Source: a virus. From it: a DNA stretch of 57,205 nucleotides. The notes under the pieces were generated by a model, which saw only the letters and a list, made by a program, of their open reading frames with translations, was not told where the DNA came from and did no database searches. The position numbers and the translations under genes are program-made. Positions within the stretch are counted from its first letter, which is position 1; the number at the start of each line of letters is the position of its first letter. Below, piece after piece: positions 2,911 to 43,954 of the stretch. Location of the stretch: IMG/VR virus record IMGVR_UViG_3300032309_001424, positions 1 through 57,205 of that record; one strand, 5' to 3'.

Positions 2911-3299
2911 TGGCAAGAGTAAAAATTAATTGGTTTGATGGTGAGTTAGACAAGCTACTTAACCAGAAAGACGGTGCGGTTGGAAAATATCTCACCAGAA
3001 AAGGAAATGAAATTCTTGTATCTGCTCGTGCTCGAGTAGGTGTGAGAACTGGTGCTCTTAGAGCATCGCTTCATATGAGGCATATGAAGGATCCAAGAGG
3101 ACAGCAAATCTGGATTGGGTCGAATCTTCATTATGCGCTAGCTCATCACGAAGGAACAAAGCCACATGTAATCGTACCTAAAAGCGGAAAAATGCTTAGG
3201 TTCGTTTCAAAAGGCAGGGTTGTTTATACACATGTTGTAAACCATCCGGGTACTAAAGCAAATAGATATCTAGCTGACGCTCTTAGAGACAAGCTATAA
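2910..3299 (+). CDS. HK97 gp10-like neck protein
   Basis: This 129-residue protein matches the HK97 gp10 family of head-tail joining proteins. It has an N-terminal helix followed by VRTGALRASLHMRHMKD, then IGSNLHYALAHHEGTKPHVI, and a C-terminal PGTKANRYLADALRD. The pattern RTG-LR-S, Y-HEGT-PH and PG--A--YL is typical of the family. It overlaps the preceding gene by one base and is followed by 55 bases before the tail-assembly chaperone. The role in head completion or tail joining is known from the family, not shown here. Confidence 0.8.
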   Translation: MARVKINWFDGELDKLLNQKDGAVGKYLTRKGNEILVSARARVGVRTGALRASLHMRHMKDPRGQQIWIGSNLHYALAHHEGTKPHVIVPKSGKMLRFVSKGRVVYTHVVNHPGTKANRYLADALRDKL

Positions 3300-3354
3300 T
3301 TAAGTAACGATAAACTACGCAAGTGGTCCATCAATGACAGAAAAGGAATAATAG

Positions 3355-3705
3355 ATGACAACACGATTTAAAGATTTTGGAAGCGGCGAAAGTGTTAATA
3401 AAGAACCGCTCTCCTTTAAACTTTATGGTGAAGATTTTGAATGCTACTCAAGCATCCAAGGCAAGGTTCTTCTGGATATGGTTTCAGATGCTTCGTCTAA
3501 CGATGCAGAGGCAGCAGCAAAAACAATCACTAACTTCTTCTCACACGCTCTAAAGCCAGAAAGCTACAAGCGTTTTGAAGCTCTTATCGAAGACCCTGAA
3601 AAGATCGTCAATGTTGAAACATTAGGCGAAATTACAGGATGGCTCACAGAACAGTACTCAGGCCGTCCTCAACAGGGGCCAGAGCAATCGCAGAGTGGGC
3701 AATAG
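3355..3705 (+). CDS. Tail assembly chaperone, short form (lambda gpG-like)
   Basis: This 116-residue protein has the hallmarks of actinophage tail-assembly chaperones: an ILDMV-type helix (GKVLLDMVSDASSNDAEAAA), then FFSHALKPESYKRFEALIED and VETLGEITGWLTEQYSGRP. These proteins bind the tape measure during tail assembly and are not in the virion. It lies directly upstream of the tape measure gene and has a partner frame in -1 (3639-4085), as in lambda G/GT. The start follows AAAAGGAATAATAG. A Pro/Gln-rich tail before the stop coincides with the overlap where the frameshift would happen. Confidence 0.8.
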   Translation: MTTRFKDFGSGESVNKEPLSFKLYGEDFECYSSIQGKVLLDMVSDASSNDAEAAAKTITNFFSHALKPESYKRFEALIEDPEKIVNVETLGEITGWLTEQYSGRPQQGPEQSQSGQ

Positions 3706-4085
3706 ACCTCTGGCCTTATGTAAATGGAAAAGCTCTAGTGAACGGACTTCAGTTGGCTTCTATGGAAGTAGATGACATGTTAGATGTCCTCCATTATTTT
3801 ATGGAGGAAGACTTTAACGTCTCTTCTAACGAACAGGCTGAAGCTCGTGAAAAAGCTAGAACTATTCTTTATAAGAGTCTTTATAACAAAAATTATAGAT
3901 TCTCTAAAAATAAAAATACATTTTCTACTGTAGATGCTAGCGGACAAACTAGTAACTTTGAAGAAGAACTTGTTCCAGTAGATCCTACAGCAGGACCTAC
4001 GAAGTCCTATGTCCCACCTACGGACTTCAACCCAGAATCATTTAAACCGTTCGGAGACGTACTAGACGCTCCGCTAGAGCTCTAA
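3639..4085 (+). CDS. Tail assembly chaperone, frameshifted C-terminal extension (lambda gpT-like)
   Basis: This -1 frame is open from 3618 to 4085 and most likely supplies the C-terminal half of a gpGT-like fusion made by a -1 shift near 3675-3678. If fused there, about 135 residues are added: IAEWAIDLWPYVNGKALVNG, then MLDVLHYFMEED and a polar, disordered-looking tail ending in FKPFGDVLDAPLEL. The ATG at 3639 has no Shine-Dalgarno sequence and lies inside the first chaperone gene, so independent initiation is unlikely. In lambda the T part contacts the tail tube protein during assembly. The next gene is the tape measure at 4105. Confidence 0.7.
   Translation: MAHRTVLRPSSTGARAIAEWAIDLWPYVNGKALVNGLQLASMEVDDMLDVLHYFMEEDFNVSSNEQAEAREKARTILYKSLYNKNYRFSKNKNTFSTVDASGQTSNFEEELVPVDPTAGPTKSYVPPTDFNPESFKPFGDVLDAPLEL
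3675..3678 (+). other. Candidate -1 ribosomal frameshift site (G-GGG)
   Basis: In the 3618-3705 overlap between the chaperone frame and the -1 frame, the best slip position is the GGG codon at 3676-3678 preceded by G at 3675. A P-site glycine tRNA could re-pair perfectly one base back. It is not a canonical X-XXY-YYZ heptamer, because the following CCA codon does not re-pair well. The fusion would read ...GRPQQG then ARAIAEWAIDLW and be about 243 residues long. The downstream frame has no ribosome binding site of its own. Confidence 0.5.
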
Positions 4086-4104
4086 TCATTGGAGGTGATG
4101 GCTT

Positions 4105-7100
4105 GTGGCAGTAGTTGGTAGTGCAGAGATAATTGTCCGTGCCATCACCACTGGTGTAAAAAGCGACATCGAAAAAGCATTTAATAGCTCTGACACAATT
4201 GCAGAACGTGCTGGAGCAAATGCTGGTAGCAGCTTTTCTAGAGGTTTTCGTAAAGGTGGAGGAGATCCTGCCTTTCTGTTCGGTAAAAGTATTAGCGAGG
4301 GCGATTTAAATAGATTTACAGAGGCAAGAAAAAGATTTATGTCTCTGGTCAGAGCTGGCTATGTTCTAGCTCCAGCTATCACTGCTGTTGGTGGCGCTAT
4401 TGGTGCTCTTGTTGGTGGCTTGGGAACGATTATCTCTCTTACAGCAGCAGCAACACCTGCCTTATTAGGTTTGTCTGGTGCTTTTTTAGCGGTAGGTGCT
4501 GCCGCTGCGGTTCTCAAAGCAACATTTGGTGGCGTCGGGGAGGCTATTAAGGCTGGTGCAAAAGTATCTGCAAGTGGTGCAGATAATGCAGAAGCTCTTG
4601 CTCGTGCTAATGAAAGACTTGCAGATGCCTATTACAACTTAGATGAAGTAGCAAGAGAAAATGCAAAGAGAAAAGCAGATGCAGTCGAAGCTGAATCTGA
4701 TGCAGCAACCTCTGTTGCAGATGCAGCAATTGCCGTAGAGCGTGCAGAGCGTTCATATCAAGGAGCTGTTAAGAACACAGAAAAAGCACTTGAGGACGTC
4801 ACAAAGGCTCGTGAAGAGGCAAAAGAAGCAATCCAGCAACTTCGCTTTGAACTTGAAGGCGGAGTTATCTCTGAAAAGAAAGCACGCCTTGAGTTTGAGA
4901 AAGCTCGTGAGTCTCTACAGCGTGTTCAAGACCTTCCACCTAACTCTCGTGCTCGCCGTGAGGCCGAGCTTGCATTTGCCGAAGCTGATCTCAACTTGCG
5001 AAAAGCAATTGACAAAAATGGAGATCTTCGTAAGGAAAATGCAAGAGCAAATAAAGAGGGTGTTGATGGTAATCAAAGAGTTGTTGATGCTCAAAATGCA
5101 TTAGTAGCTGCGAAACAAGATGAGTCCGATGCTCAGATAGACGCTGCACGGTCTGTTATCTCTTATAGAGAAGCCCTAGAAGAGCTTAAAGCAGCTCAGG
5201 ATGCACTTATTAAGGGTGGGGAAGTTGATCGTCAAAATGCTCGTGCTTTAGAGCTTGCATACAGAGAACTTGCTGCTGCAAAAAGAGCTGTTGCAGATGC
5301 AGAAAAAGGGCTTGGGTCAAACGAATTTCAAGTTGCTCTAGATAAACTATCCCCTGCTGCACAAGACTTTGTTAAATATATTCTTAGCTTAAAAGAGGCT
5401 TTTGAAGAATTAAGAATGAAACTTCAGGAAGCGTTTTTTCCTAAGTTTACGGAAGCAGTTAAGCTTCTTGTTGAGACGTATCTTCCACTACTAGAAGAAG
5501 ATTTAATTAATATTGCTGCAAAACTTGGAGAGCTGTCTCTTTTATTTGCAGAAGCATTTACTACCCCTAAAAAGGTAGAAGAAATTAAAATAATTTTTGA
5601 GTCTTTCACTCCTATTATTGATGCTTTAGGTAGAGCATTTATAGATCTTGCTTCAGCTTTTGTGACATTACAAGCAGCATTCACTCCTTACACAATTGAG
5701 TTTGCACAGTTTATTCAGAAAAAAGCAGAAGCTTTTAGAAAGACCGTGGAACTTAAAGAAGCTACTGGCGAGCTTAATGAAATCTTTAAAACAGCAACAG
5801 GAATTGTAAGAGATCTTAGTGCGGCATTTGGAAACACGTTTAGCGCTCTAGGAACAATTATTGCTGCATCTGTTGGTCCGGGAAGTGGTGGACAGTATTT
5901 CCTAGATTGGCTAAAACAAGTAACTGCCATGTGGGAGACAACCACAAAAGCTCTTAGCGAGACAGGAGAGCTTCAGACAACAATACTAAATCTGACTAAA
6001 AACTTTACAATCCTTCTTGACATTATTGGTCTTATTGCAATAGGTTTAATTCAAATTGGCGCAAGTGAGGGTATGACTCAGTTCTTAGAGTCCATAAAGA
6101 AAGTCGTTATTGAATTTAACAAGATTGGCGAGTCTCTTAGTGGTAAAGATGGAGCCTTAGCCTCTCTTGGAAAGTTTCTTGAAGAGTTTGCAAAAACTAT
6201 AGGAATCTTTACTGACTCTGGCGCAATTACAATATTTTTCACTACATTAACAAATATTCTTAAAGTGTTAAATACTGTATTAAGCACAGAACTAGGGCAA
6301 GCTCTACTGATAGTGACTGGATCTATTCTTGCTTTTAATGCTGCAATTGGCCTTTCTAAAATAGCTCTTGGATTCTATGTTGACTCTCTAAAAAGTGCAA
6401 TGTTGGCCTTAGTTAATTTCGGTGTAATGGGCCTAGCTCCACTAAAGAATTTACCTATTATAGGTGGAATGGTAACTAAATTTAGTCAAGAGCTTTCAAT
6501 GTTGACTTATGGCGCTGGAATGGTTAGTACTCCATTTTTAGTTCTAGTAGGTGCTATTGCTGCCGTTATTGCAATTCTTGTTCTTGCATACAATAAAAGC
6601 GAAATTTTTAGAAAAGCTCTTCAAGATCTTGTAGATGGTGTTTTAAAAGCTTTAAAGGATGCTTTTAAAACTATTGGAGATGCTCTTGAAGAAGTATTCC
6701 CTCAAATTAATAAGTTTGGTGACTTCTTTAAAGAGATTGGTGACTTCATAGGTAAGTATGTAGTTCCCGTATTTGAAGTAATTCTTGTGGGTGCTATAAA
6801 TACTTTAGCTGACGTAATTGCTGGATTTATAAAGATAGCTGGTGGAATATTTAAGTTATTTACTGATCCTGTAGAAGGAGTTAAGTTAATCCTTAGTGGG
6901 TTTGTTTCGTTCTTGAAGGCAAGCATTATTAATCCAATTGTTGCTGCATTTAAAATTGGCAATATTTGGGGATTTTTATCTGATGGATTTAAAGAGACAA
7001 TCAATAAAATGATTGACTGGTGGAATAGATTTGAACTAACGTTAAGTATCCCGTCAAATGTTTTAACTAAGGCTCTTGGCATTGCTGGTAAAGGATTTAC

Positions 7101-7383
7101 AATAACCACTCCTAATATTCCAAGACTTGCGTTAGGTGGAATTGTTCCAGCAACAAACAATGGAACTCTTGCAATGATTGGTGAAGCTGGTCGCCCAGAG
7201 CGTGTAGAGCCTCTTGATCCAGACGGACTATCGAAGCGTGACAAGGCTATGATTGACTATATGTCAGCTGGCGCTGGTGGAATCAACATCACTGTAAACC
7301 CATCTCCCGGTATGGACGAGCGTGAGCTTGCAAATCTTGTATCCCGTCAACTTGCATTCCAAATGCGTAAAGGTGCTGCATAA
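4105..7383 (+). CDS. Tape measure protein
   Basis: This 1092-residue protein is the largest + strand gene and lies straight after the tail-assembly chaperones. By the usual rule of about 0.15 nm per residue it would set a tail of roughly 160 nm. Residues about 80-145 are a long hydrophobic Gly/Ala-rich stretch. Residues about 160-400 are charged coiled coil rich in Ala, Glu, Arg and Lys. Several more hydrophobic segments follow (for example ILLDIIGLIAIGLIQIG). The C-terminus carries GGIVPATNNGTLAMIGEAGR then PERVEPLD, the GEAG-PE--VPL element common at tape measure ends. The start is GTG, chosen because GGAGGTGAT lies at 4091-4099. No lytic transglycosylase or peptidase domain is visible. Confidence 0.92.
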   Translation: MAVVGSAEIIVRAITTGVKSDIEKAFNSSDTIAERAGANAGSSFSRGFRKGGGDPAFLFGKSISEGDLNRFTEARKRFMSLVRAGYVLAPAITAVGGAIGALVGGLGTIISLTAAATPALLGLSGAFLAVGAAAAVLKATFGGVGEAIKAGAKVSASGADNAEALARANERLADAYYNLDEVARENAKRKADAVEAESDAATSVADAAIAVERAERSYQGAVKNTEKALEDVTKAREEAKEAIQQLRFELEGGVISEKKARLEFEKARESLQRVQDLPPNSRARREAELAFAEADLNLRKAIDKNGDLRKENARANKEGVDGNQRVVDAQNALVAAKQDESDAQIDAARSVISYREALEELKAAQDALIKGGEVDRQNARALELAYRELAAAKRAVADAEKGLGSNEFQVALDKLSPAAQDFVKYILSLKEAFEELRMKLQEAFFPKFTEAVKLLVETYLPLLEEDLINIAAKLGELSLLFAEAFTTPKKVEEIKIIFESFTPIIDALGRAFIDLASAFVTLQAAFTPYTIEFAQFIQKKAEAFRKTVELKEATGELNEIFKTATGIVRDLSAAFGNTFSALGTIIAASVGPGSGGQYFLDWLKQVTAMWETTTKALSETGELQTTILNLTKNFTILLDIIGLIAIGLIQIGASEGMTQFLESIKKVVIEFNKIGESLSGKDGALASLGKFLEEFAKTIGIFTDSGAITIFFTTLTNILKVLNTVLSTELGQALLIVTGSILAFNAAIGLSKIALGFYVDSLKSAMLALVNFGVMGLAPLKNLPIIGGMVTKFSQELSMLTYGAGMVSTPFLVLVGAIAAVIAILVLAYNKSEIFRKALQDLVDGVLKALKDAFKTIGDALEEVFPQINKFGDFFKEIGDFIGKYVVPVFEVILVGAINTLADVIAGFIKIAGGIFKLFTDPVEGVKLILSGFVSFLKASIINPIVAAFKIGNIWGFLSDGFKETINKMIDWWNRFELTLSIPSNVLTKALGIAGKGFTITTPNIPRLALGGIVPATNNGTLAMIGEAGRPERVEPLDPDGLSKRDKAMIDYMSAGAGGINITVNPSPGMDERELANLVSRQLAFQMRKGAA

Positions 7384-10241
7384 TGAGCGAAATCTATAAC
7401 CAAGCACAGGAAAACTTTTTTGTAGATCGTGGTCTAACTCCACTTCCTCAGCCGCACCTAACTGGTATGAAGCTCAGGGCAGATATTGTCCTTGGCGATT
7501 TTGTATTTAATACTATTGACGAATATGGCGTTACTTGGGTTATTACTGATATTGAAGGTTGGTGGAGTCATCCAGAGCCAGATATGCCAGATATTCCTCG
7601 TGGTTTTGGTGATGGTTCTTATGATGTTAAAGGTAGATACCAAGCTCGTATGATTACTCTAACTGGGTCTTTTTTAACTCCAACCCCAGACCTTGTTGAG
7701 GCTGCTCGTGACAGACTTATTATTGCAACAGATCTTGTTTATAAAGGTGCATGGTTAAAAACAGGTACTGATGGAAAGCGTGCATCTTTTGTTAGATTAA
7801 GTGGCGCACCTCAGATACAAACAGTTACTGCCCGTGGTCGTACAGATTTTTCTATTGGTTTAAAAGCAGCTGATCCAATTAAATACTCATGGAATGATCA
7901 AGAACCTTCTGGATATAACATTATTGAAATTCCAGCAAGAAATAGAACATCTGGATCAACAGGAATTGAAACTATAGTAAACAGCGGAACTGTTGCGGTA
8001 CCTGTTCAGCTTGAAATACAAGGTCCAATCATAGCTCCAGCGTATATTGTGACCAACAAAGATACTGCAACACAAAAACTTCTTGCAGTTGTCTCTGGTC
8101 TTAGAGGACGTCTTACATCCTCTGTTGTTAATAAAGAACTTTCTTTTAGCGAAAGTCAGCTAGTAGATATATTAACACTGACAACAAGAGCGGCGCACGG
8201 TTTGCTGGTTGGAGATATAGTAGAGATTAGCGGTCTATCTGAGTCTTACTTAAATGGTGAGTTTGAGGTATACGCTGTAAATACAGAAACTACAGTTCAA
8301 TTTTTAATTAACGATCCAAGTGCTGCTTCCATACAAAGCATAGTGTCTAAAAAACTTCTTGACGGAGTAGCCACAATAGAAACAAACTCAAACCATGGAT
8401 TTGAAGTAGGTAACTCTATTTTTATTGCAGATGTTGATTCTGTATTTAACGGAACTTACTCTATAACAGCAAAAACAAATACAACTTTTAGTTACGCAAA
8501 ATCAAGAGGAGTAGCTCAGACAGTAATCGGTAAGAGATTAAACAACAACATTGCAACTCTTAGCACTAGCGTAGCTCACGGGTTTATTGTTGGAGATATA
8601 GTTACAGTGTCTATATCTGATATAAACTATGACGGAGAGTTTCAGATAACAAGCATATCTTCTTCAGGCGATGAGTTTTCTTACTCTAGTACAAGAACAA
8701 ATACAAAAACTACTACAACAAAAAGTATGTCAAATGATGTTGCAACAATAACATCTACAAATCCTCACGGATTAATTATTAAAGACTCTGTCACTATCTC
8801 TGGAATTGACTCGACCTTTGATGGTACAAGAACAGTTGAATCTATACCAACACCTACAACTTTTACATATAACTTAACTAGAGAAACAGAAGTAGCTTTA
8901 GCAACAAGACAACGTTTTTCTGGTGTTGCAACGTTTATTACTGGATCTACTTCACCTGGAACTGAAGCACCTTCCCACGGGCTGCTTGTAGGTGAAGAAG
9001 TAACTATTAAAGGTAGCGTTGGTAATGCAACATATCCTACTTCTGGAATTGTAACCTCTACACCTAACTTAAATACTTTTACTATTGCAAACCCAGCGCA
9101 ACCCGACGAAGGTGCAATAAATATTACTGTAGCGCCAACTCCTACAGTTTTTGCAAGTAAAAAATATCTTACAAGCAAACAGCTTATTGGTGGCACAGTT
9201 ACTGTGTTTACACCTACGTCTCATGGTTTTTTTGTTGGAGAGCAGGTAATAATTTCTGGTCTTGGATCCCCCTATGATGGAACTTTTACTATATCTGCAG
9301 TTCCTTTTGCAAATGCACTTAGCTATATCCAAGCTGGTTCTAATGCTACATTATCGAATGCAGGTGCTGTTGTATCAACACGAGGTAGAGCAGGTTCTAG
9401 CGTCACTATAGTCACATCTACTCCTCATAATTTTGCAAATAATCAGTATGTGACTATATCTAATATGGACTCTGCAGCAGCAACATTAAATGGTACATAT
9501 GTAGTGACTGTTATTAGTCCAACAGTTTTTAAATATACAACAACAACATCTACAAACGTTGGCACCGTTGCTGGTACAGCTACAGTTCTTACAAGAGAAA
9601 GAGTAGGAACTCTTGCTACGGTTGTTACAGCTGCTCCTCACGGGCTATCAAATGGTGCATCTATATCAGTTTCTGGAATGGATTCAAACGCATCGTCGTT
9701 GAATGGGACATATACAATAACTGTAGTAAATAGCACAACTATTACATACACAACAGCAACTACAGGAAATATAGCTACCGAAAATGTAAATGCTGGATCT
9801 GGAGGAATTGTTATTCAGGGTGCTTTTGCTCGTGTAACTAGATCTATCGCATCTACTCCTGACAATGGGTTTTTTACTGCTATTGGATCTATTCCCTTTG
9901 CAGAGGCATCTGGAACGGCTTCGGTATCCGATGATATTCTTGCAGAAGATGGTGGAGCTATTAGCTCTAATGGTGTTGCAGTCAAAAAGAATAATATACC
10001 TTTTACTCCCGGACTTACTGGTACAAGCATAGATTTTGGCCCAGATATCTTAGAAATTGATACATTAAGTAAAGATGTTAGCTTAAATGGTGCAACATCT
10101 GGTGGACGAGCAAAACTTGATGTCTTTACTGATTTCTTTTTCTTAGAGACTGGTTCTAATACTATAGAGTTTTATGACTCGTCAGATTCTGCGAGTAATT
10201 CTCTTCTTAAGTTATACTATCGATCTGGCTGGCTAGGCTAA
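7383..10241 (+). CDS. Distal tail protein (Dit-like) carrying eight HG(F/L) modules
   Basis: This 952-residue protein has a Dit/minor tail protein split by a large insertion. Residues 1-230 form the Dit-like N-terminal part (DIEGWWSHPEPDMPDIPRGF, then RMITLTGSFLTPTPDLVEAA and TDFSIGLKAADPIKYSW). The last 35 residues give the matching end (FFLETGSNTIEFYD, then LKLYYRSGWLG), typical of actinophage minor tail proteins. Between them, residues about 260-800 hold eight degenerate repeats of the HG(F/L) module, for example ATITSTNPHGLIIKDSVTIS followed by GTRTV and TTFTY. The insertion makes it about three times the usual length. It starts one base before the tape measure stop (TAATGA). The modules probably project from the tail-tip hub. 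Confidence 0.78.
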   Translation: MSEIYNQAQENFFVDRGLTPLPQPHLTGMKLRADIVLGDFVFNTIDEYGVTWVITDIEGWWSHPEPDMPDIPRGFGDGSYDVKGRYQARMITLTGSFLTPTPDLVEAARDRLIIATDLVYKGAWLKTGTDGKRASFVRLSGAPQIQTVTARGRTDFSIGLKAADPIKYSWNDQEPSGYNIIEIPARNRTSGSTGIETIVNSGTVAVPVQLEIQGPIIAPAYIVTNKDTATQKLLAVVSGLRGRLTSSVVNKELSFSESQLVDILTLTTRAAHGLLVGDIVEISGLSESYLNGEFEVYAVNTETTVQFLINDPSAASIQSIVSKKLLDGVATIETNSNHGFEVGNSIFIADVDSVFNGTYSITAKTNTTFSYAKSRGVAQTVIGKRLNNNIATLSTSVAHGFIVGDIVTVSISDINYDGEFQITSISSSGDEFSYSSTRTNTKTTTTKSMSNDVATITSTNPHGLIIKDSVTISGIDSTFDGTRTVESIPTPTTFTYNLTRETEVALATRQRFSGVATFITGSTSPGTEAPSHGLLVGEEVTIKGSVGNATYPTSGIVTSTPNLNTFTIANPAQPDEGAINITVAPTPTVFASKKYLTSKQLIGGTVTVFTPTSHGFFVGEQVIISGLGSPYDGTFTISAVPFANALSYIQAGSNATLSNAGAVVSTRGRAGSSVTIVTSTPHNFANNQYVTISNMDSAAATLNGTYVVTVISPTVFKYTTTTSTNVGTVAGTATVLTRERVGTLATVVTAAPHGLSNGASISVSGMDSNASSLNGTYTITVVNSTTITYTTATTGNIATENVNAGSGGIVIQGAFARVTRSIASTPDNGFFTAIGSIPFAEASGTASVSDDILAEDGGAISSNGVAVKKNNIPFTPGLTGTSIDFGPDILEIDTLSKDVSLNGATSGGRAKLDVFTDFFFLETGSNTIEFYDSSDSASNSLLKLYYRSGWLG
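8170..9770 (+). repeat. Array of eight degenerate HG(F/L) modules inside the Dit-like gene
   Basis: The repeat is recognised at protein level as [V/A]T[I/L]-T---HG[F/L]--G--V-[I/V]SG, then a short loop with F(N/D)GT, a strand Y-[I/V], and a final TTF-Y. Copies centre on AAHGLLVGD, SNHGFEVGN, VAHGFIVGD, NPHGLIIKD, PSHGLLVGE, TSHGFFVGE, TPHNFANNQ and APHGLSNGA. The DNA is diverged, so these are old duplications rather than recent tandem copies. Confidence 0.8.
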
Positions 10242-24138: not shown

Positions 24139-24624
24139 ATGTGGAAACCAGCTGACAATTTAGAATGGCAAAGAGACGCTTCATGCGCCGATCCTAAAAA
24201 TAAAGAATCAGTTGATTGGTTCTTTTCTAAGGAACCTCAAGAAAAGTATGCAGCTAAGAACATGTGTTTTGCATGTCCTGTGCGTGCACAGTGCCTCCAA
24301 TGGGCTTTAGAGCATCGCCAGATCTGGGGTATTTGGGGTGGTAAAGATGAAGTCGATATTCGTAGAACTTTGTCGGTATCCTATAATGGTGAAGAAACAA
24401 GAAGACGCAGATTTCCTAATTGTCCATATTGCACTGCTCGTCCTTCTAAGCTTGATACTTCTATAGAAGAACTGCCAAACGGAGGACGTTGGACTACAGC
24501 AAAGGTAGTTACCTGTACAGAATGTAATTTTTCATGGAGAAGTCGCACTAGCGCAAATGCAGTAGAGGCTTATAAGCTAGAGAAAGAAGAAAAATCTAAA
24601 AAAAGTTCAAAGAAAACTAAGTAA
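24139..24624 (+). CDS. whiB: WhiB-family Fe-S transcription regulator with C-terminal zinc ribbon-like extension
   Basis: This 161-residue protein has the four WhiB cluster cysteines at C16 (ASCAD), C43 and C46 (MCFACP) and C52 (AQC), in the standard C-xn-C-x2-C-x5-C order. The GIWGG turn lies at 64-68, followed by a basic region. WhiB proteins bind a 4Fe-4S cluster and act with the host primary sigma factor. After the usual end there are about 70 extra residues with two CxxC pairs (CPYC near 95, CTEC near 126), resembling a zinc ribbon, and a Lys-rich tail. It overlaps the convergent glycosyltransferase by eight bases. It probably controls host or phage transcription. Confidence 0.92.
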   Translation: MWKPADNLEWQRDASCADPKNKESVDWFFSKEPQEKYAAKNMCFACPVRAQCLQWALEHRQIWGIWGGKDEVDIRRTLSVSYNGEETRRRRFPNCPYCTARPSKLDTSIEELPNGGRWTTAKVVTCTECNFSWRSRTSANAVEAYKLEKEEKSKKSSKKTK

Positions 24625-25675
24625 GTTTTTCTTTACAAAAGTTTAGATTTGCCTGAAGTCTTTCATCTGCTGAATCAATATCAACAGCCGCTTGAGCGTA
24701 AGAAGCTGCATCTTCATACATACCTAAGTTGTAAGAAGCAATAGCTGCATAATCGTGTGGTGCTGCACCCCAAGCTTCTGCTTCACACAGATACTCGAGT
24801 GGCTTTTCTTTAATAGCAAGAGCTTCCTTAGCGCATTCAAGCGAGTTAGCCCAATCTTTTCGGTCATAGTAGACCTTTGCAAGATCAACCCATGGTTCTC
24901 TTCTACCTGGAGCTTGATCGATTGCCTTACGCAACCAAATTTCTGCTTCTGCTGGAAGTGATTTAGCAATAAAACGCATTGAAGCAGCACGTTCTGGTGC
25001 CCAGTGTGCGGTAGGCAAAGATAGGTGTCTTTTTAGCTCTGCTGCGGCTTCTATGTAGTGTCCATAAAAATAAAGCTCACGTCCGTAGTAGAACGCATTG
25101 CGATCATTGTATGGATCTTCTTTTACTGAAAGAGCAAGGAGTGGGAGATATTGCGAACGAGATTTAGTTGGGTCTGGATGGTGATGTGTTTCTAAGCCAT
25201 CAATCCATTCTTGTTTTTCTTCCATACCATAAACATAAAGACACTCGTGAACAGGATGGCGCCAACGATATCCTTTACGAGTATGAATGTGATCATAACT
25301 AAATTCTAATCCTGGAGTTCCATCTTCATTCCAAGACCAAATGTGCTTGTATCGAGGACGAGTAACTCCACGCTCCCACGCTGCTTCAAGCAGTGGACGC
25401 CAATTAGGTGTAATTACTTCATCCATATCTAAAGAGATACACATATCAATATCAATAGGGAGTGCAGCTAAAGCAGCATTGCGTGAATCATCAAATCTCC
25501 AAGGAGCAACTCGCACATCTACAACATTAATTCCAAGCTCACGAGCACGTTCTACGGTTCCGTCTGTAGAACCAGTATCAGCAATAAGTAAATAATCGGC
25601 ATCTTTCGATGCTTCAAACCACTTATCAACAAACTGACGTTCATTAAGTGCAATTGTGTAAATAGCTACTTTCAT
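24617..25675 (-). CDS. GT2 glycosyltransferase with TPR-like C-terminal half
   Basis: This 352-residue protein has a GT-A family 2 domain in residues 1-180. It begins VAIYTIALNERQFVDKWFEA, has YLLIADTGSTDGTVERAREL for nucleotide-sugar binding, and SLDMDEVI as the DxD-type metal motif, then RHPVHECLYVYG. Residues about 200-352 are helical hairpins rich in Ala, Tyr and Leu, like tetratricopeptide repeats (WVDLAKVYYDRKDWANSLEC). It is the last gene of the - strand region, next to a methyltransferase and downstream of the collagen-like fibres. The sugar and acceptor are unknown; fibre threonines are a plausible target. The ATG overlaps a Lys-rich AT region with little Shine-Dalgarno. Confidence 0.85.
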   Translation of the reverse strand: MKVAIYTIALNERQFVDKWFEASKDADYLLIADTGSTDGTVERARELGINVVDVRVAPWRFDDSRNAALAALPIDIDMCISLDMDEVITPNWRPLLEAAWERGVTRPRYKHIWSWNEDGTPGLEFSYDHIHTRKGYRWRHPVHECLYVYGMEEKQEWIDGLETHHHPDPTKSRSQYLPLLALSVKEDPYNDRNAFYYGRELYFYGHYIEAAAELKRHLSLPTAHWAPERAASMRFIAKSLPAEAEIWLRKAIDQAPGRREPWVDLAKVYYDRKDWANSLECAKEALAIKEKPLEYLCEAEAWGAAPHDYAAIASYNLGMYEDAASYAQAAVDIDSADERLQANLNFCKEKLT

Positions 25676-25677
25676 TT

Positions 25678-25893
25678 TTAAATTTCTCCCTCTTCAGACA
25701 AGACAGTAATTTTTTCTACTTCTAAACCATCTTTATATAAAAGAGTAGAGTTTTTAAAAACTACATCTCTTTTACTAACGTATCCACCGTCTTTGTCTAA
25801 TTTTTCATCTGCAATTTCCTTTGTTGGGGCTAGTACTTGAACAAGCATAGTAACCTCATATGTATAGCAAGATGTATCTAATGAATCTGTCAT
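25678..25893 (-). CDS. Hypothetical small acidic protein
   Basis: This 71-residue protein is unrecognised. It reads TDSLDTSCYTYEVTMLVQVL near the start and KITVLSEEGEI at the end. It sits between the methyltransferase and the GT2 gene with gaps of 14 and 2 bases, so it is in the same transcription unit. The AAGGATTTAAAA sequence upstream gives a ribosome binding site. A single beta-rich domain is likely; no function can be assigned. Confidence 0.55.
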   Translation of the reverse strand: MTDSLDTSCYTYEVTMLVQVLAPTKEIADEKLDKDGGYVSKRDVVFKNSTLLYKDGLEVEKITVLSEEGEI

Positions 25894-25907
25894 TTTTAAA
25901 TCCTTGT

Positions 25908-26486
25908 CTATTGTATTTTTTTATACCAACATTGATAATCTTGCAAGACTAACTCTAGCCTATCTCGATAAATACTGCCGAACGCATCGATAGCCATTTT
26001 TGGTTCTTTTAGAGGACCTAAACCAGCGCTCCATTGGTAGTCATCAAAGGCAATAATTCCTCCGACATTAAGGCATTCATAAGATGCTATAGCGTCTTTA
26101 ATAACACCATATGCCGTATGATCGCCATCTACATATATAAAGTCATACATTTCCCTATTATTTTTAAAGAAACTGTCACTTGTTCCTTTGTACTTAATAA
26201 TTTTTCTTTCTTCCTGACCTTGCTTAGTTTTAAAGTCATAAAGATTTTCTACAGTAGACCAGTTCATTTGATGGTGCATTGGCTCGTCTGAACCCTCCCA
26301 TGTATCAACATCAATCAAAACTGAGTCAGGGTGAGTAAGTAGATTATCGTAGAGCCACACAGAAGCGTCTCCTGTGTAAGCACCTATTTGAAGGGAGCGT
26401 ATAGGTTTACCTGAAAAATTACGAAGCAAGTGCATGTAAAAATTTTTTTGGCCATCGTTAATGAACCAGTTTGTTGTTTCGTTCAT
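25908..26486 (-). CDS. Class I SAM-dependent methyltransferase
   Basis: This 192-residue protein has a Rossmann methyltransferase core. Motif I is RSLQIGAYTGDASVWLYDNL, followed by SVLIDVDTWEG (acidic residue after strand 2), then MYDFIYVDGDHTAYGVIKDA and LNVGGIIAFDDYQW. This order fits the Methyltransf_24 group, many of which act on sugars or small molecules in glycan clusters. It lies upstream of the small gene and the GT2 gene on the same strand. O-methylation of a fibre or cell-surface sugar is a reasonable inference. A palindrome and AT-rich promoter-like region lie upstream. Confidence 0.8.
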   Translation of the reverse strand: MNETTNWFINDGQKNFYMHLLRNFSGKPIRSLQIGAYTGDASVWLYDNLLTHPDSVLIDVDTWEGSDEPMHHQMNWSTVENLYDFKTKQGQEERKIIKYKGTSDSFFKNNREMYDFIYVDGDHTAYGVIKDAIASYECLNVGGIIAFDDYQWSAGLGPLKEPKMAIDAFGSIYRDRLELVLQDYQCWYKKIQ

Positions 26487-36336: not shown

Positions 36337-39300
36337 TTAGATCCTAGTTATCTGAACGTAGCCAGCGCCGTCACGGTATCCAATGTTTGCAATTGCGACA
36401 CCATTAAATGTTCCAGATCCGTTATATTGAGCATCACTTGTGCCAACGTTAGTTGCTGAGCTAATTATAAATGAGCCTCCACCAATACCAGAGGAAATGT
36501 TTCCACCACCTGAGGTGTAACCGCCAGGACCGCCAGTGTAGCCACCACCGCCACCACCAGTGTTGTTACCAGTGTGACCGCCTCCACCGCCACCAAAGCC
36601 ACCAAGAACGTTAGTAGAGCTGCTAGCGTTACCGCCAATTGCATAAAAAGTTCCAAAGATATTTGATCCGCTAAAACCAGCACCTTGAGTAAATTGATGT
36701 TGATTACCGTCAGAGGATCCAGCAGACTCAGATAGCGAACGACTAGGATATAGCTGACCTCCACTATTAAGACCACCACCGCCACCGCCGTGATACCCAG
36801 GGCCACCTTGTCCAATAACAGGGTCTGAACCGCTATTTATTGGTGCTAAGCTTCCAGACCAGATAGGTCTTTCACGAGTTTGACCGCTATGGAATTGTTG
36901 TCCACCCCATACGGAGTAGCTTCCTCCGCCACCACCAGCAATAATTATTGGATTAAGTGTTCCACCAACTACAACAAATGTTCCACCGCCACCAGCAGCA
37001 TTTGAATCAGGGGCTGATGTTCCACCACTTGGAAGTTGCCCGATAACCATCTCTAGTGTTGACCCTTGAGTTAAGCTAACTCTTCCACGCATAACCGCAC
37101 CAAAAGTTGCACCTGGATTGTTAGCAGCTTGTTGACCTCTTGCTCCAGCAGCAATAATTTCATACACTCCAGTAGCTGGAACTGTCCACAGCTGATATCC
37201 GTTTGCTCTACCTTGGTTTAGGTAAGTATTAGCCCACGCTGGGCTTCCAACGCCAACTCTTGCCTGAGCTATGCTTGGACCAAAGCGTCCTTGTACTCCA
37301 CCTGAAGTAAATGTTGCAGATGTAAATGCATACAACTGTGGAGCTGGGTTGATTTGGAATGTAATAGTAGAGAATCCTTGTAAACCACCAACATCTGTTG
37401 CTCTAACAATTACTTGACGACCAGGAGCAGCAATTGTTTCTGTAGGAGTTCCTGTAATAGAGCCATTTGATGTATTAAAGTTAAGACCTGTAGGAAGGGT
37501 TCCGCTTGATATTGCCCATGTAAGAGGAGCAACAAGATTTGATGTTGTAAATGTAATGGCAGTCATTGCAGCATCTGCAAAGATATTTTCACGAGAAACG
37601 GTAGATGGGTTAATAGCACCTACAGTTGCATTAATAATAAACGTATGAGTCTGGAATGCAGTTGCACCGCCAGCATCAGTTGCTGTAATAATAACTACTC
37701 TTCCTGGAGATGCAATAGCTTCTACAGGAGTACCGCTAATTGATCCAGTTGATGTATTTAAGCTAAGTCCGTTAGGCAAAACTCCACTAGTTACTGCAAA
37801 TGTAAGAGGAAGAGTTAAACCTATAGGTGTTGCTGTTGTAGGAGTTATTGTAGTTCCACGATCAACAGTAGTAGATACTGTAAGAGGAGATAGATCTCCT
37901 GTTGTCTGATTTAATGTAAAGTTGTGAGCATCATATCTTGTCTGAACAAAGTAAAAGTCTTTTATTTCTGAAGCATCCCCAACGCTGAATCTTCCACCTT
38001 CTGGATATTCATATTGAAGCATATCTAAATCTAAAAATCCATTGTCTTTTACATGGAAAATATCTTTATCTAGTGAAATTCCAATCTTTTTAAATGTATG
38101 CGTACCTGATCCACCTGATATTGATGTAATAACTGATCCATTTGGAAGAGGCTTTAGTGTAAAAGTATAGCTAGTTGAGGATCCTTGACGGAAAAAACTG
38201 TCAACAAAGTATGTTGTATTGTTAGTAAGACCTGAATATGCTGACCCAGTGCTGTTATAAAATAACATAGTACCTGTATACCAAAGTAGCTCTGTTGCAC
38301 TAGTTACTGTTACGTTTGATGCACTAACAGCTGACACTGTTACAGCAGCATCAGCACTATTTGTTGCGTCAAAAACTTTTGCATCGCCCTTTAAAATAGT
38401 TAGAGTCGTCTGCGTTAATTCGTTTTGATTATTACCAGCAAAGGTACGAGCTTGGTTAGCAAGTTGGAATGTTCCAGAAAGAGATCCTGTTATTGGAATT
38501 ACATCTCCGTCTGGTACAGCGCTTACTTGAAAAGTAGATGTTGAAGCTCCAAGAGTTCCTACTGTTTTTAAGAAAACAACTCCACGAGGGTTAGTAGCAA
38601 AATACCCTGACCCACCAGTTAAAGAATAATATAAAGGAGTTCCTAAAACTCTACCTGAAAAATTTTCGCTTCCATGGGCAACTGTTATAGTGTTGTTAGG
38701 AATACTTACTCCAGAAATATTACTTGTTACACCACCTATAGTTGCAGAGTTAGACCAATCTATGTTAATTGAAGAAAGAGTATTTGAACCATCAAAAGTC
38801 TGAGCTGTTGCAGAGTTTGTAGCATCAAAAGACTTTGCAGTTGTGTTTGTGGCAGGGAATTCTTGAGAGATTGTTGAGTTAAGATTTAAGAAATAAAAAG
38901 GAGTATTTACTTTAAACCCGTGGGAACTTGCTGTAGTTACAGTTAGTGTAGATGTTGCTGAGTCATTTGTTAAAATACCATCTCCATCTGCAATACGAAG
39001 CTGTGATCCCTGAAAAAATTCACCTGTAATAATAGAAGAGTACAAATCTTCAATTGACGCAGTAGTTCCTTGATTTGCTTTACAAAGATAAGTAAAAGTC
39101 GTGCTATTTGGAATAGAGTTAATAATGTAAGAACCGTCTGCTGTTACAGACTTAGTTCCTGTGACTGAAATAGGAATACCTACAGAAAGAAGGTGGTCAA
39201 AGTCAGTAGTTACAGTAATTTCACGAGTACCAGCGTTAGTTGTAATAGCTCTAATGCCTGGAATAGTAGTATCACCACTTTTTGAAAAGAAAGAAGGGGT

Positions 39301-39483
39301 GTTGTTAATAAGCTCAACAGTTTCCCATTTTGTTGGCTGTAGACCGTATTCAAAGTCTGTATCAATAAGGTTTTCAGGCTGCGAAATACGGAGTTTCGTT
39401 ACTGGATCAATAAACTCCTTTGGGAAGATGATTTCTCCGCCTGAAGTTGAGCTACCACTGCTACCACCTAGAAAACCTGGCAT
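36337..39483 (-). CDS. Large modular tail protein with Ig-like and glycine-rich domains
   Basis: This 1048-residue protein starts MPGFLGGSSGSSTSGG then EIIFPKEFIDPVTKLRISQP and FEYGLQPTKWETVE, an N-terminus I recall from T4-like marine phage structural proteins. HG-type modules follow (VTTASSHGFKVNTPFYFL). Residues about 535-720 hold two He_PIG putative Ig domains (LPNGLSLNTSTGSISGTPVE and LPTGLNFNTSNGSITGTPTE). Residues about 720-1040 are glycine-rich, with GGGGTFVVVGGTLNPIIIAG, ending in SATNVGTSDAQYNGSGTFNG. The end closely matches the glycine-rich part of the 2019-residue protein downstream. Eleven bases separate the two genes, so they probably assemble together. Confidence 0.75.
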   Translation of the reverse strand: MPGFLGGSSGSSTSGGEIIFPKEFIDPVTKLRISQPENLIDTDFEYGLQPTKWETVELINNTPSFFSKSGDTTIPGIRAITTNAGTREITVTTDFDHLLSVGIPISVTGTKSVTADGSYIINSIPNSTTFTYLCKANQGTTASIEDLYSSIITGEFFQGSQLRIADGDGILTNDSATSTLTVTTASSHGFKVNTPFYFLNLNSTISQEFPATNTTAKSFDATNSATAQTFDGSNTLSSINIDWSNSATIGGVTSNISGVSIPNNTITVAHGSENFSGRVLGTPLYYSLTGGSGYFATNPRGVVFLKTVGTLGASTSTFQVSAVPDGDVIPITGSLSGTFQLANQARTFAGNNQNELTQTTLTILKGDAKVFDATNSADAAVTVSAVSASNVTVTSATELLWYTGTMLFYNSTGSAYSGLTNNTTYFVDSFFRQGSSTSYTFTLKPLPNGSVITSISGGSGTHTFKKIGISLDKDIFHVKDNGFLDLDMLQYEYPEGGRFSVGDASEIKDFYFVQTRYDAHNFTLNQTTGDLSPLTVSTTVDRGTTITPTTATPIGLTLPLTFAVTSGVLPNGLSLNTSTGSISGTPVEAIASPGRVVIITATDAGGATAFQTHTFIINATVGAINPSTVSRENIFADAAMTAITFTTSNLVAPLTWAISSGTLPTGLNFNTSNGSITGTPTETIAAPGRQVIVRATDVGGLQGFSTITFQINPAPQLYAFTSATFTSGGVQGRFGPSIAQARVGVGSPAWANTYLNQGRANGYQLWTVPATGVYEIIAAGARGQQAANNPGATFGAVMRGRVSLTQGSTLEMVIGQLPSGGTSAPDSNAAGGGGTFVVVGGTLNPIIIAGGGGGSYSVWGGQQFHSGQTRERPIWSGSLAPINSGSDPVIGQGGPGYHGGGGGGLNSGGQLYPSRSLSESAGSSDGNQHQFTQGAGFSGSNIFGTFYAIGGNASSSTNVLGGFGGGGGGHTGNNTGGGGGGYTGGPGGYTSGGGNISSGIGGGSFIISSATNVGTSDAQYNGSGTFNGVAIANIGYRDGAGYVQITRI

Positions 39484-39568: not shown

Positions 39569-40219
39569 TTATATACCTAACCACCATGCTGTAGAGATTG
39601 CAAAAGTACTTTGTGAACCTGTCGGTCCTGTAACTCCCTGAGATCCACTGGCTGTTTCTACAAAAACACCATTAAAATAAACAAAAGTTTTTGCTGTATT
39701 TGTATTAAACCACGCATCGCCATTAACCAAACCCTCGATTGATGGCTGTGTCGCAGAAGCAGTAAACTTACCAATTGGGCCTGTTGGTCCAGTAGGGCCA
39801 GGAACTTCAGATTGCGCTCCAGTTGAACCAGTAGGACCTGTCTGACCACGAGGACCAGTTGGTCCTTGAGGTCCAGTTACATTTGAATCAGCACCAGTAG
39901 GACCTGTAAAACCACGAAGACCTTGAGGACCAGTTACTCCTTGAGGACCAGTTACTCCTTGAGGACCAGTAGGGCCAGTAGGCCCTTGAGGACCAGCAAC
40001 ATCTGATACAGGACCAGTAGGGCCAGCAATACCTTGTGGACCTGTTGAACCTGTAGGTCCTAGAGCCCCTGTTGGTCCTTGAATACCTTGAGGTCCAGTA
40101 GGGCCAGTAGGAGTCACACGAAGTGCTTCCCAAACTGTTCCAGTCCATGTCCAAGTTTGACCGCCAACAGTGAATTGCTCACCAACAACTACGGGCGTTG
40201 GAAAATCAATGGCTGCCAT
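39569..40219 (-). CDS. Collagen-like fibre protein, short
   Basis: This 216-residue protein has an N-terminal domain of about 40 residues ([20 protein letters not shown] then [13 protein letters not shown]) shared with two larger fibres at 41354-43240 and 43253-43954. Gly-X-Y triplets rich in GPT, GPQ and GVT follow, with one knob module ([20 protein letters not shown]) and a short tail ending STAWWLGI. The N-terminal domain probably docks the trimer to a common site on the virion, and the collagen part is the shaft. There is no sizeable C-terminal receptor domain, so it may be a spacer or be extended by another protein. Confidence 0.75.
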
Positions 40220-40251: not shown

Positions 40252-40419
40252 TTACTCGACAACGGGTTCTTCTACCCCGCCATTAAGCTTGTTTGTATAG
40301 GCTGATGCCCAGTTAATTGCTGATGTTAAAGACTCCCACGGGCCACTCTCATCAATGACATTATCGCCATGAAGGATTTGAACCAACAGTTGATCTTCAA
40401 TTATTACATATGAAAACAT
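40252..40419 (-). CDS. Small hypothetical protein in the fibre operon (55 residues)
   Basis: This short gene fills the gap between two fibre genes. The ATG at 40419 follows GAGGGAGAGATATA, a good ribosome binding site. The product reads MFSYVIIEDQLLVQILHGDN, then DESGPWESLTSAINWASAYT, and ends VEEPVVE at a TAA at 40252-40254. It has no signal peptide or membrane segment. Its size and place recall small fibre-assembly or chaperone genes between fibre genes, but no family is recognised. Confidence 0.65.
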   Translation of the reverse strand: MFSYVIIEDQLLVQILHGDNVIDESGPWESLTSAINWASAYTNKLNGGVEEPVVE

Positions 40420-40434
40420 TATATCTCTCCCTCA

Positions 40435-41352
40435 CTATACCGAATACGCTAGTTTTCCAGCAGCACCCACGGCTAGGGCTGTGTCGTTGTCTATAAAAAC
40501 TCCATTTATATTGCTTGTTCCAAAACTACTGGTTCTTTGAATCCAAGCAATTCCATCAAAAGAAGTAGCAAGTTTTCCAGTAGCTCCACCAGCTAAATAT
40601 GTGCCATCTTGAGAAACAGATACCGATCTGATACTAGATGCTCCAAAGCTACTAGTTGGGAAGATCTGAGTCCATGTAGTTCCGTTACTAGATGTTGCAA
40701 CTTTTCCAGCTTCTCCTACTGCAACAAATCTAGTTCCAGCTTCTGTAGCAGTCACTGCATTAATAATACTTACTCCAAATGAAGATGTTCTTTGAGTCCA
40801 AACAACTCCATTAGTAGAAGTAGCAAGTTTTCCATCATATCCTACTGCCACAATTAAACTGTTTGTTGCCCGCAGTCCGTTGATAAAAGTTGTACTAAAA
40901 GACGATGTTCTTTGAGTCCACGATGTTCCGTCAATAGAAGTAGCTAGTTTTCCTGAGGCACCTGCAGCAATCCATAAAGAAGCACTAGTAGAGTATACAA
41001 CTGACAGAATAGCACTTGCTCCAAAAGACGAAGCTTGCTGAGTCCAAGTAACTCCATCAGTAGAAGTAGCTAGTTTTCCTGAGGCACCTGCAGCAATATA
41101 CTTATTATTTCCATATGAAATACAAAAAATACTGCTATCACCAAAACCGCCGTCACGTTGAGTCCATGTTTGAGTATCTGACGATGTTGCAATTTTTCCT
41201 AAGTTTCCTACAGCTACATATCCTTTTGTTGGCGTGTAGTTTATTGCATTGATATTTGTAAGACTAAAAGAGCTATTTGCTACTTGTTGCCACTGAGAAG
41301 GTGTAAAGGGAAAAACAAGAGTTGCATGCATTGGATGAACGGCTATAAGCAT
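40435..41352 (-). CDS. Probable seven-bladed Asp-box beta-propeller protein
   Basis: This 305-residue protein is almost entirely one repeat of about 42 residues: a strand with AVG--GK[L/I/V]ATS, an Asp-box S-(D/N)G--W and a linker TQRTSSFG. Six complete copies are seen (for example GKLATSTDGVTWTQQASSFG). The C-terminal half-copy GKLAYSV and the N-terminal SQWQQVANSSFS would together complete a seventh blade, the closure typical of propellers. It resembles BNR/YCF48-like proteins. In a fibre cluster a glycan-binding role is likely; no sialidase catalytic residues (Arg triad) are apparent. Its start lies just after the previous stop, without a clear ribosome binding site. Confidence 0.78.
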   Translation of the reverse strand: MLIAVHPMHATLVFPFTPSQWQQVANSSFSLTNINAINYTPTKGYVAVGNLGKIATSSDTQTWTQRDGGFGDSSIFCISYGNNKYIAAGASGKLATSTDGVTWTQQASSFGASAILSVVYSTSASLWIAAGASGKLATSIDGTSWTQRTSSFSTTFINGLRATNSLIVAVGYDGKLATSTNGVVWTQRTSSFGVSIINAVTATEAGTRFVAVGEAGKVATSSNGTTWTQIFPTSSFGASSIRSVSVSQDGTYLAGGATGKLATSFDGIAWIQRTSSFGTSNINGVFIDNDTALAVGAAGKLAYSV

Positions 41353-41353
41353 T

Positions 41354-43240
<1,887 letters not shown>

Positions 43241-43252
43241 TTGTTATATCTC

Positions 43253-43954
43253 CTAACTCAACAAAGATTCGTAGGTAAATTGAATAAGAATTTTGTCGTT
43301 TCCAGAAAACAAAAACGGTGTGCTTTCTGTAACTGCAACACCTTCATCAAAAGTTGCAACTTGTGAATGCATATAGAGCTCAATTACGTTGTTTACATTG
43401 TTATTAAAAATTGCTGTTCCAAAGTATGTAACACCAGGTCCTTCATCTCGCATAACAACTTGTCCTACTGGTTGATAGTTTTCAATAACTCCTGGAGTGG
43501 GAAGGCTTACTTTATATACGCCTAATCCACGACTAAATCCAACAGTTCCAGCAATAATACGAATTTCACCAAAAATGGTTGCTCCTGTATTCATATATCT
43601 ACCAGTAATGCTTCCATTTCCAATTACTGGATTTGTAGTACTTGCAGTTAAAACAGGGTTATATGTAGCCCAAGGCTGGATTGCAAAACTACCTGTGGGA
43701 CCAGTAGGGCCAGTAGGTCCTACTACAGTCGATGCTGCGCCCGTTGGACCTGTTGCTCCTGTTGCTCCTGTAGCTCCTGTTGGTCCAGTTGCTCCAATAG
43801 CAGTTGAGTCAAGACCAGCAGCTCCCGTTGGACCTGTTGGTCCTACGGCGCTAGTACGAACTAGTCGCCAAGAAGATCCGTTCCAACGATATGTTTGAGT
43901 TCCATATACATATGTCTGGTTAAGGGTGGGACCACTAGGGAAATCAATTGGCAC
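43253..43954 (-). CDS. Short collagen-like fibre with C-terminal trimer domain
   Basis: The start is GTG at 43954, preceded by a near-perfect AAGGAGGT seven bases upstream, so a strong start despite GTG. The protein has 233 residues. The shared docking domain (PIDFPSGPTLNQTYVYGTQT then YRWNGSSWRLV) leads into a short GPT/GAT shaft. A C-terminal domain of about 135 residues follows (WATYNPVLTASTTNPVIGNG, GRYMNTGATIFGEIRIIAG, LGVYKVSLPTPG). A related C-terminal domain ends the 1638-residue fibre upstream. That domain type is frequent at the tip of phage fibres and probably trimerises and contacts the receptor. Confidence 0.78.
   Translation of the reverse strand: MPIDFPSGPTLNQTYVYGTQTYRWNGSSWRLVRTSAVGPTGPTGAAGLDSTAIGATGPTGATGATGATGPTGAASTVVGPTGPTGPTGSFAIQPWATYNPVLTASTTNPVIGNGSITGRYMNTGATIFGEIRIIAGTVGFSRGLGVYKVSLPTPGVIENYQPVGQVVMRDEGPGVTYFGTAIFNNNVNNVIELYMHSQVATFDEGVAVTESTPFLFSGNDKILIQFTYESLLS

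Follow-up and report, generated by a model that had tools for sequence, protein, structure and literature searches.

Background

Among the collagen-like fibre genes of an uncultured virus lies a gene for a stand-alone beta-propeller, and it raises the question of what a phage does with such a protein: does it bind the host, process a glycan, close the fibres or help to assemble them? The window, that is the whole stretch of 57,205 nucleotides analysed here, carries the gene on the minus strand (40435-41352; 305 aa). The first-pass annotation had placed a stand-alone propeller in a fibre block, as is indeed the case, and had offered two roles for it, a lectin-like tip or a glycan-processing enzyme. 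We lean towards the reading of an adhesin at the distal tip of a collagen-like tail fibre, an exchangeable module whose N-terminus would plug into a conserved domain that ends the upstream fibre gene.

Results and discussion

A closed propeller with old blades

The open reading frame contains seven units of the form A-x-G-x-x-G-K-x-A-(T/Y)-S, at residues 47, 87, 129, 169, 211, 254 and 294, and Asp boxes in the C-D turns. Five boxes follow the strict S-x-(D/N)-G-x-x-W pattern, against 0.01 expected from shuffles (maximum two in 20,000); six had been counted at first, and the sixth, which comes first in the protein, is degenerate (SSDTQTW), a seventh being split between the termini. Residues 282-305 (40438-40509, minus strand) form strands A, B and C of blade 7, the chain stopping after the last of them (GKLAYSV), and the missing W-strand and linker come from residues 21-33 at the N-terminus (41254-41292, minus strand; W21...SSF...NIN), where W21 and F29 align with the W and F of the other repeats and W21 is kept in 42 of 44 homologues. 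The AlphaFold2 model, made with 44 homologues (pLDDT 92.9, pTM 0.89), has four strands in each of blades 1-6 and three in blade 7, to which a strand at residues 22-23 adds the fourth, and Foldseek searches of the PDB return the seven-bladed Ycf48 and the designed seven-blade protein v13WRAP-T (TM 0.77/0.81). The seven blades and the complementary half-repeats at both ends, as first proposed, are thus borne out, and the predicted velcro closure between the termini is supported by the model, the pairing being deduced from the strand list and the repeat alignment.

Ahead of the closing strand stands a conserved N-terminal peptide, residues 1-20 (MLIAVHPMHATLVFPFTPSQ; 41293-41352, minus strand). 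Its His6 is present in all 43 homologues that have this residue, and the first ten residues are modelled with low confidence (pLDDT 49). With this permuted arrangement, a single turn of blade 7 would hold both termini.

The near-identity of the linkers had suggested a recent expansion of the repeats, a view that the relatives contradict. Blades of the same propeller are about 45% identical to each other, whereas the same blade in closer relatives is 85% identical (L003), falling to about 60%; each blade usually finds its best match in its own counterpart, a signal that fades below about 55% overall identity. At the DNA level the blades are 59-72% identical and spell SSFG with differing synonymous codons. 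Because orthologous blades are more alike than sister blades and the DNA has diverged to this extent, the expansion must be old and predate the divergence of the closer relatives.

Relatives and host

Relatives of the propeller were found in phage DSL-LC01 (47% identity) and in at least 124 viral contigs, almost all encoded as stand-alone proteins, some 300-310 aa long. A lake metagenome yielded DSL-LC01, which is predicted to be an actinophage (PMC10611076). Its large terminase subunit and that of the window share 79% identity; the window's protein is about 60% identical to those of Microbacterium phages, and the host is thus probably an actinobacterium. The DSL-LC01 protein (WJZ48562.1) is an ortholog, having the same gene order with the mini-protein and with a fibre that ends in the conserved domain, both described below, but its record names it a photosystem II assembly factor and its annotated start lies 17 codons short. 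These 17 omitted codons (L001:8428-8478) encode the conserved N-terminal peptide.

Among named phage proteins, related propellers occur in tail fibre or baseplate genes: the BNR protein of S-CBWM1, the baseplate wedge initiators of S-SSM7 and DSL-LC03 and the tail fibres of the Caulobacter phages KSC and Percy share the repeat type and the tail context, but there the propellers are fused into large proteins and the mini-protein was not detected alongside. In Synechococcus phage B23 a related propeller frame is unannotated (L162:4845-5813), two genes on the opposite strand being annotated in its place. Pattern scans of bacterial genomes, a limited search that distant relatives may escape, found no relative of the propeller or of the mini-protein.

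An enzyme or a photosystem II factor?

The Asp-box propeller fold is common to sialidases, which speaks for a sialidase-like enzyme. The alignment, however, revealed no invariant Asp or Glu across 44 homologues; acidic positions conserved in more than 60% of them comprise four Asp-box positions and three partly conserved ones. The arginine triad was not found either, conserved arginines being limited to the W-T-Q-R strand positions and R242. The propeller thus lacks the conserved catalytic carboxylates and the triad that mark sialidases and glycoside hydrolases, and no sialidase appears among its 50 best PDB fold matches. Since no carboxylate is invariant, we regard a sialidase-like glycan-processing activity as very improbable.

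Conservation is greatest in the B-C loops and C strands, and variability is greatest in the A-B loops. Sets of Lys and Phe at seven positions on the top-side loops are nearly invariant, with loop faces, the 'top face' included, assigned as the usual propeller convention would have them. The ring of seven lysines is present in 97% of the propeller family and also in 19 of 35 other phage propellers; because it is so frequent elsewhere, it was dropped as a binding site.

Even less credible is the annotation of the DSL-LC01 homologue, according to which the protein would be a Ycf48-type photosystem II assembly factor. It is true that Ycf48 is the best PDB fold match (E 1e-13, TM 0.72), and that Ycf48/HCF136 (PDB 2xbg, 5ojr) is likewise a seven-bladed Asp-box propeller of about 300 aa. 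Identity, however, is 17-21%, the gene lies in a fibre block and has actinophage relatives, and the score with the NCBIfam Ycf48 model is 24.8 bits against an equivalog cut-off of 326, so that membership of this family (PRK13684) was rejected. The best Pfam match is DUF6242 (PF19755; E 3.5e-6), a family without assigned function, at 27.5 bits, just below its gathering score of 29. The literature searched on phage DUF6242 proteins and on a role of Ycf48 in phages offered nothing relevant.

A fibre block and a two-gene unit

The propeller gene begins one base after a collagen-like fibre gene of 628 aa (41354-43240, minus strand). It is followed by a mini-protein of 55 aa (40252-40419, minus strand; SGPWES..A..WA) predicted to fold as beta-beta-beta-alpha, by a short collagen-like protein of 216 aa (39569-40219, minus strand) and by a 1048-aa structural protein that we call 'MPGFLGG' (36337-39483, minus strand). 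The same order, from collagen-like genes through the fibre of about 628 aa, the propeller and the mini-protein of about 55 aa to the 216-aa protein, the 'MPGFLGG' protein and a very large protein, was found in about 70 contigs and is kept in DSL-LC01. The collagen-like proteins at 39569-40219, 41354-43240 and 43253-43954 (all minus strand) have in common an N-terminal 'IDFP...W.W.G..W' segment, absent from the propeller, which gives a match to a tail collar PHROG. Near the block, at 24617-26486 (minus strand), lie glycosyltransferase-like and methyltransferase-like genes.

The propeller and the mini-protein form a tightly linked two-gene unit. The mini-protein lies just downstream of the propeller in 82 of 86 loci, the divergent L006 included (the match in L008 is weak), and a separate check found it after the propeller of L168 as well. 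Counted in the opposite direction, a propeller precedes the mini-protein in 73 of its 74 loci, the single exception being cut by the contig end, and near the 35 fibre-end domain genes that lack a propeller the mini-protein was never found. The mini-protein of the window has no useful Pfam match (0.1 significance), no PHROG match and no PDB sequence match, and we found no annotation for the pair. In a read-through fusion with the propeller, which served as a modelling device only, it is predicted at moderate confidence to adopt three strands plus one helix. Docking of the N-terminal peptide on the mini-protein was considered and received no support, the peptide being disordered in the fusion model (pLDDT 35 versus 49 alone). 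The mini-protein might be an assembly factor specific to the propeller or a permanent subunit.

The fibre end as a proposed socket

The genes upstream of propellers end in a common C-terminal domain (CTD) of about 73 residues, even in otherwise different phages (L006, L009, L083, L168); in the window it lies at 41357-41581 (minus strand). An automatic count in a redundant set, uncorrected for relatedness like the other counts given here, gave a CTD gene upstream of 190 of 197 propellers. Genes read individually left three propellers without it, L008, L080 and L084, the last two being repeats in large fused proteins. L084, a contig of marine or aquatic origin that lacks the mini-protein, has two adjacent large open reading frames (3054-9161; 1109 and 921 aa) with many propeller repeats. 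No Pfam match to the CTD was obtained; it matches PHROG profiles of minor tail or structural proteins, mostly at or near the profile end. For CTD searches alignment A6 replaced A5, which was too diverse. The CTD occurs in 245 phage records, 223 of which are Gordonia phages, where it ends minor tail proteins. That the CTD is so common by itself counts against the tip reading proposed below.

Where no propeller follows, CTD genes precede other bodies: laminin-G (MQLATHGIIARPT...; PF13385, E 8e-31), glycine-rich (starting MSLWLGTLGSQI...) and others, the types other than laminin-G being judged by eye. Many of these bodies open with a short hydrophobic peptide resembling that of the propellers (MLIATHAMHAT, MLRTLHGIISS). 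A profile of residues 5-12 of the propeller family scored higher on 24 non-propeller genes that follow a CTD than on 176 control genes from the same simple gene calling (Mann-Whitney p = 0.002; p = 0.0002 for the same genes with the His position left out), in a test that was designed after examples had been seen and in which a single laminin-G family accounts for the three highest scores, so that independent events are few. In Gordonia phages, genes in this slot are identical at 9-10 of their first 14 residues; the Powerball body shows no relationship to the rest (z 0.3-2.0), and those of Lilbeanie and Sidious are distant homologues. A motif scan of the first loci for other proteins with the peptide gave only nine short, chance-like open reading frames. 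In Shewanella phage S0112 an unannotated 739-aa open reading frame starting MISLIHQGIIAAA directly follows a CTD minor tail gene (L250:3725-5941).

We suggest that the CTD of the collagen-like fibre would be the socket and the N-terminal peptide of the propeller the plug that docks on it, and that in other phages laminin-G, glycine-rich or other bodies would fill the same slot. As both termini would emerge at one turn of blade 7, the body could stand on the fibre end with its conserved face towards the cell. Docking, stoichiometry, position in the virion and ligand are proposed here from sequence and model. The adhesin-like nature of the other occupants of the slot gives indirect support to a lectin-like tip. 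The nearly invariant Lys and Phe sets of the top-side loops, and the place of named relatives in tail fibre or baseplate genes, also speak for the tip reading.

Tip or cap?

One property of the propeller fits this proposal poorly. Its identity between relatives tracks that of the collagen-like shafts and it is no more variable than they are, an uncommon trait in a tip that binds a receptor; this would be easier to explain if the ligand were generic and conserved, or if the propeller served as a cap. The 1048-aa protein behaves in another way, its first 500 residues having median identities of 84-55% and the remainder 16-40%, with C-terminal ends that are glycine-rich in some relatives and of another type in L021, L027 and L001. 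L047 has the glycine-rich end of the window's protein, yet its propeller is only 55% identical. Judged by these comparisons, the most variable receptor candidate of the block is the C-terminal half of the 36337-39483 gene, not the propeller, and this protein seems the likelier host-range determinant. The propeller could then be a conserved structural cap or hub that closes or joins fibres and contacts no receptor, leaving specificity to the downstream 1048-aa and 2019-aa proteins; the position of its conserved face, on the side of the BC and DA loops, agrees with such a role. Because propeller and shafts are equally conserved and the C-terminal half of the 1048-aa protein is divergent, we take this possibility seriously, and consider it unlikely since the same slot elsewhere holds domains of the laminin-G fold, which typically serves to bind ligands.

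Comparison with gp37-gp38

The closest functional parallel to the proposed tip is the distal tip that gp37 and gp38 form in long tail fibres of the T2/S16 type (PDB 6F45; PMC6851490, PMC12892980), in which gp38 is a separate adhesin whose N-terminus docks on the fibre protein at its C-terminal end (PMC6851490). The N-terminus of gp38 decides the fit with gp37 (PMC12892980) and the body decides the receptor. As with gp38, the gene of the candidate adhesin comes directly after that of the fibre. The window differs in having a collagen-like shaft and a 55-residue partner gene downstream, and the likeness is one of proposed function. The attachment of gp38 is a helical bundle that contains three tryptophans, and the protein has a polyglycine sandwich, whereas the model of the window protein has a short unstructured peptide before a beta-propeller; with attachment domain and body both different, membership of the gp38 family was ruled out.

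In T4, gene 38 also directly follows the fibre gene, and its product is a chaperone (PMC12892980, PMC6851490). By analogy, the propeller might help to assemble the collagen-like fibre without being part of the virion, the mini-protein acting as its co-factor. This seems improbable to us: several named tail fibre or baseplate proteins contain a related propeller, and unrelated bodies in the same slot are unlike a single chaperone family.

Implications

The exchangeable tip may be one instance of a wider arrangement in tailed phages, in which the CTD accepts unrelated bodies through the N-terminal peptide of the next gene, propellers additionally needing their 55-residue partner, and a phage could exchange its tip while keeping its shaft; we hold this generalization to be plausible, if somewhat short of probable. 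If it is true, the tip slot of many uncultured phages could be recognized by a short peptide and one small domain of the fibre, and sequence alone would be enough to name a receptor-binding candidate, also in phages that infect the abundant freshwater actinobacteria. Cultured Gordonia phages with the same CTD and a conserved peptide would make the tip idea testable at the bench.
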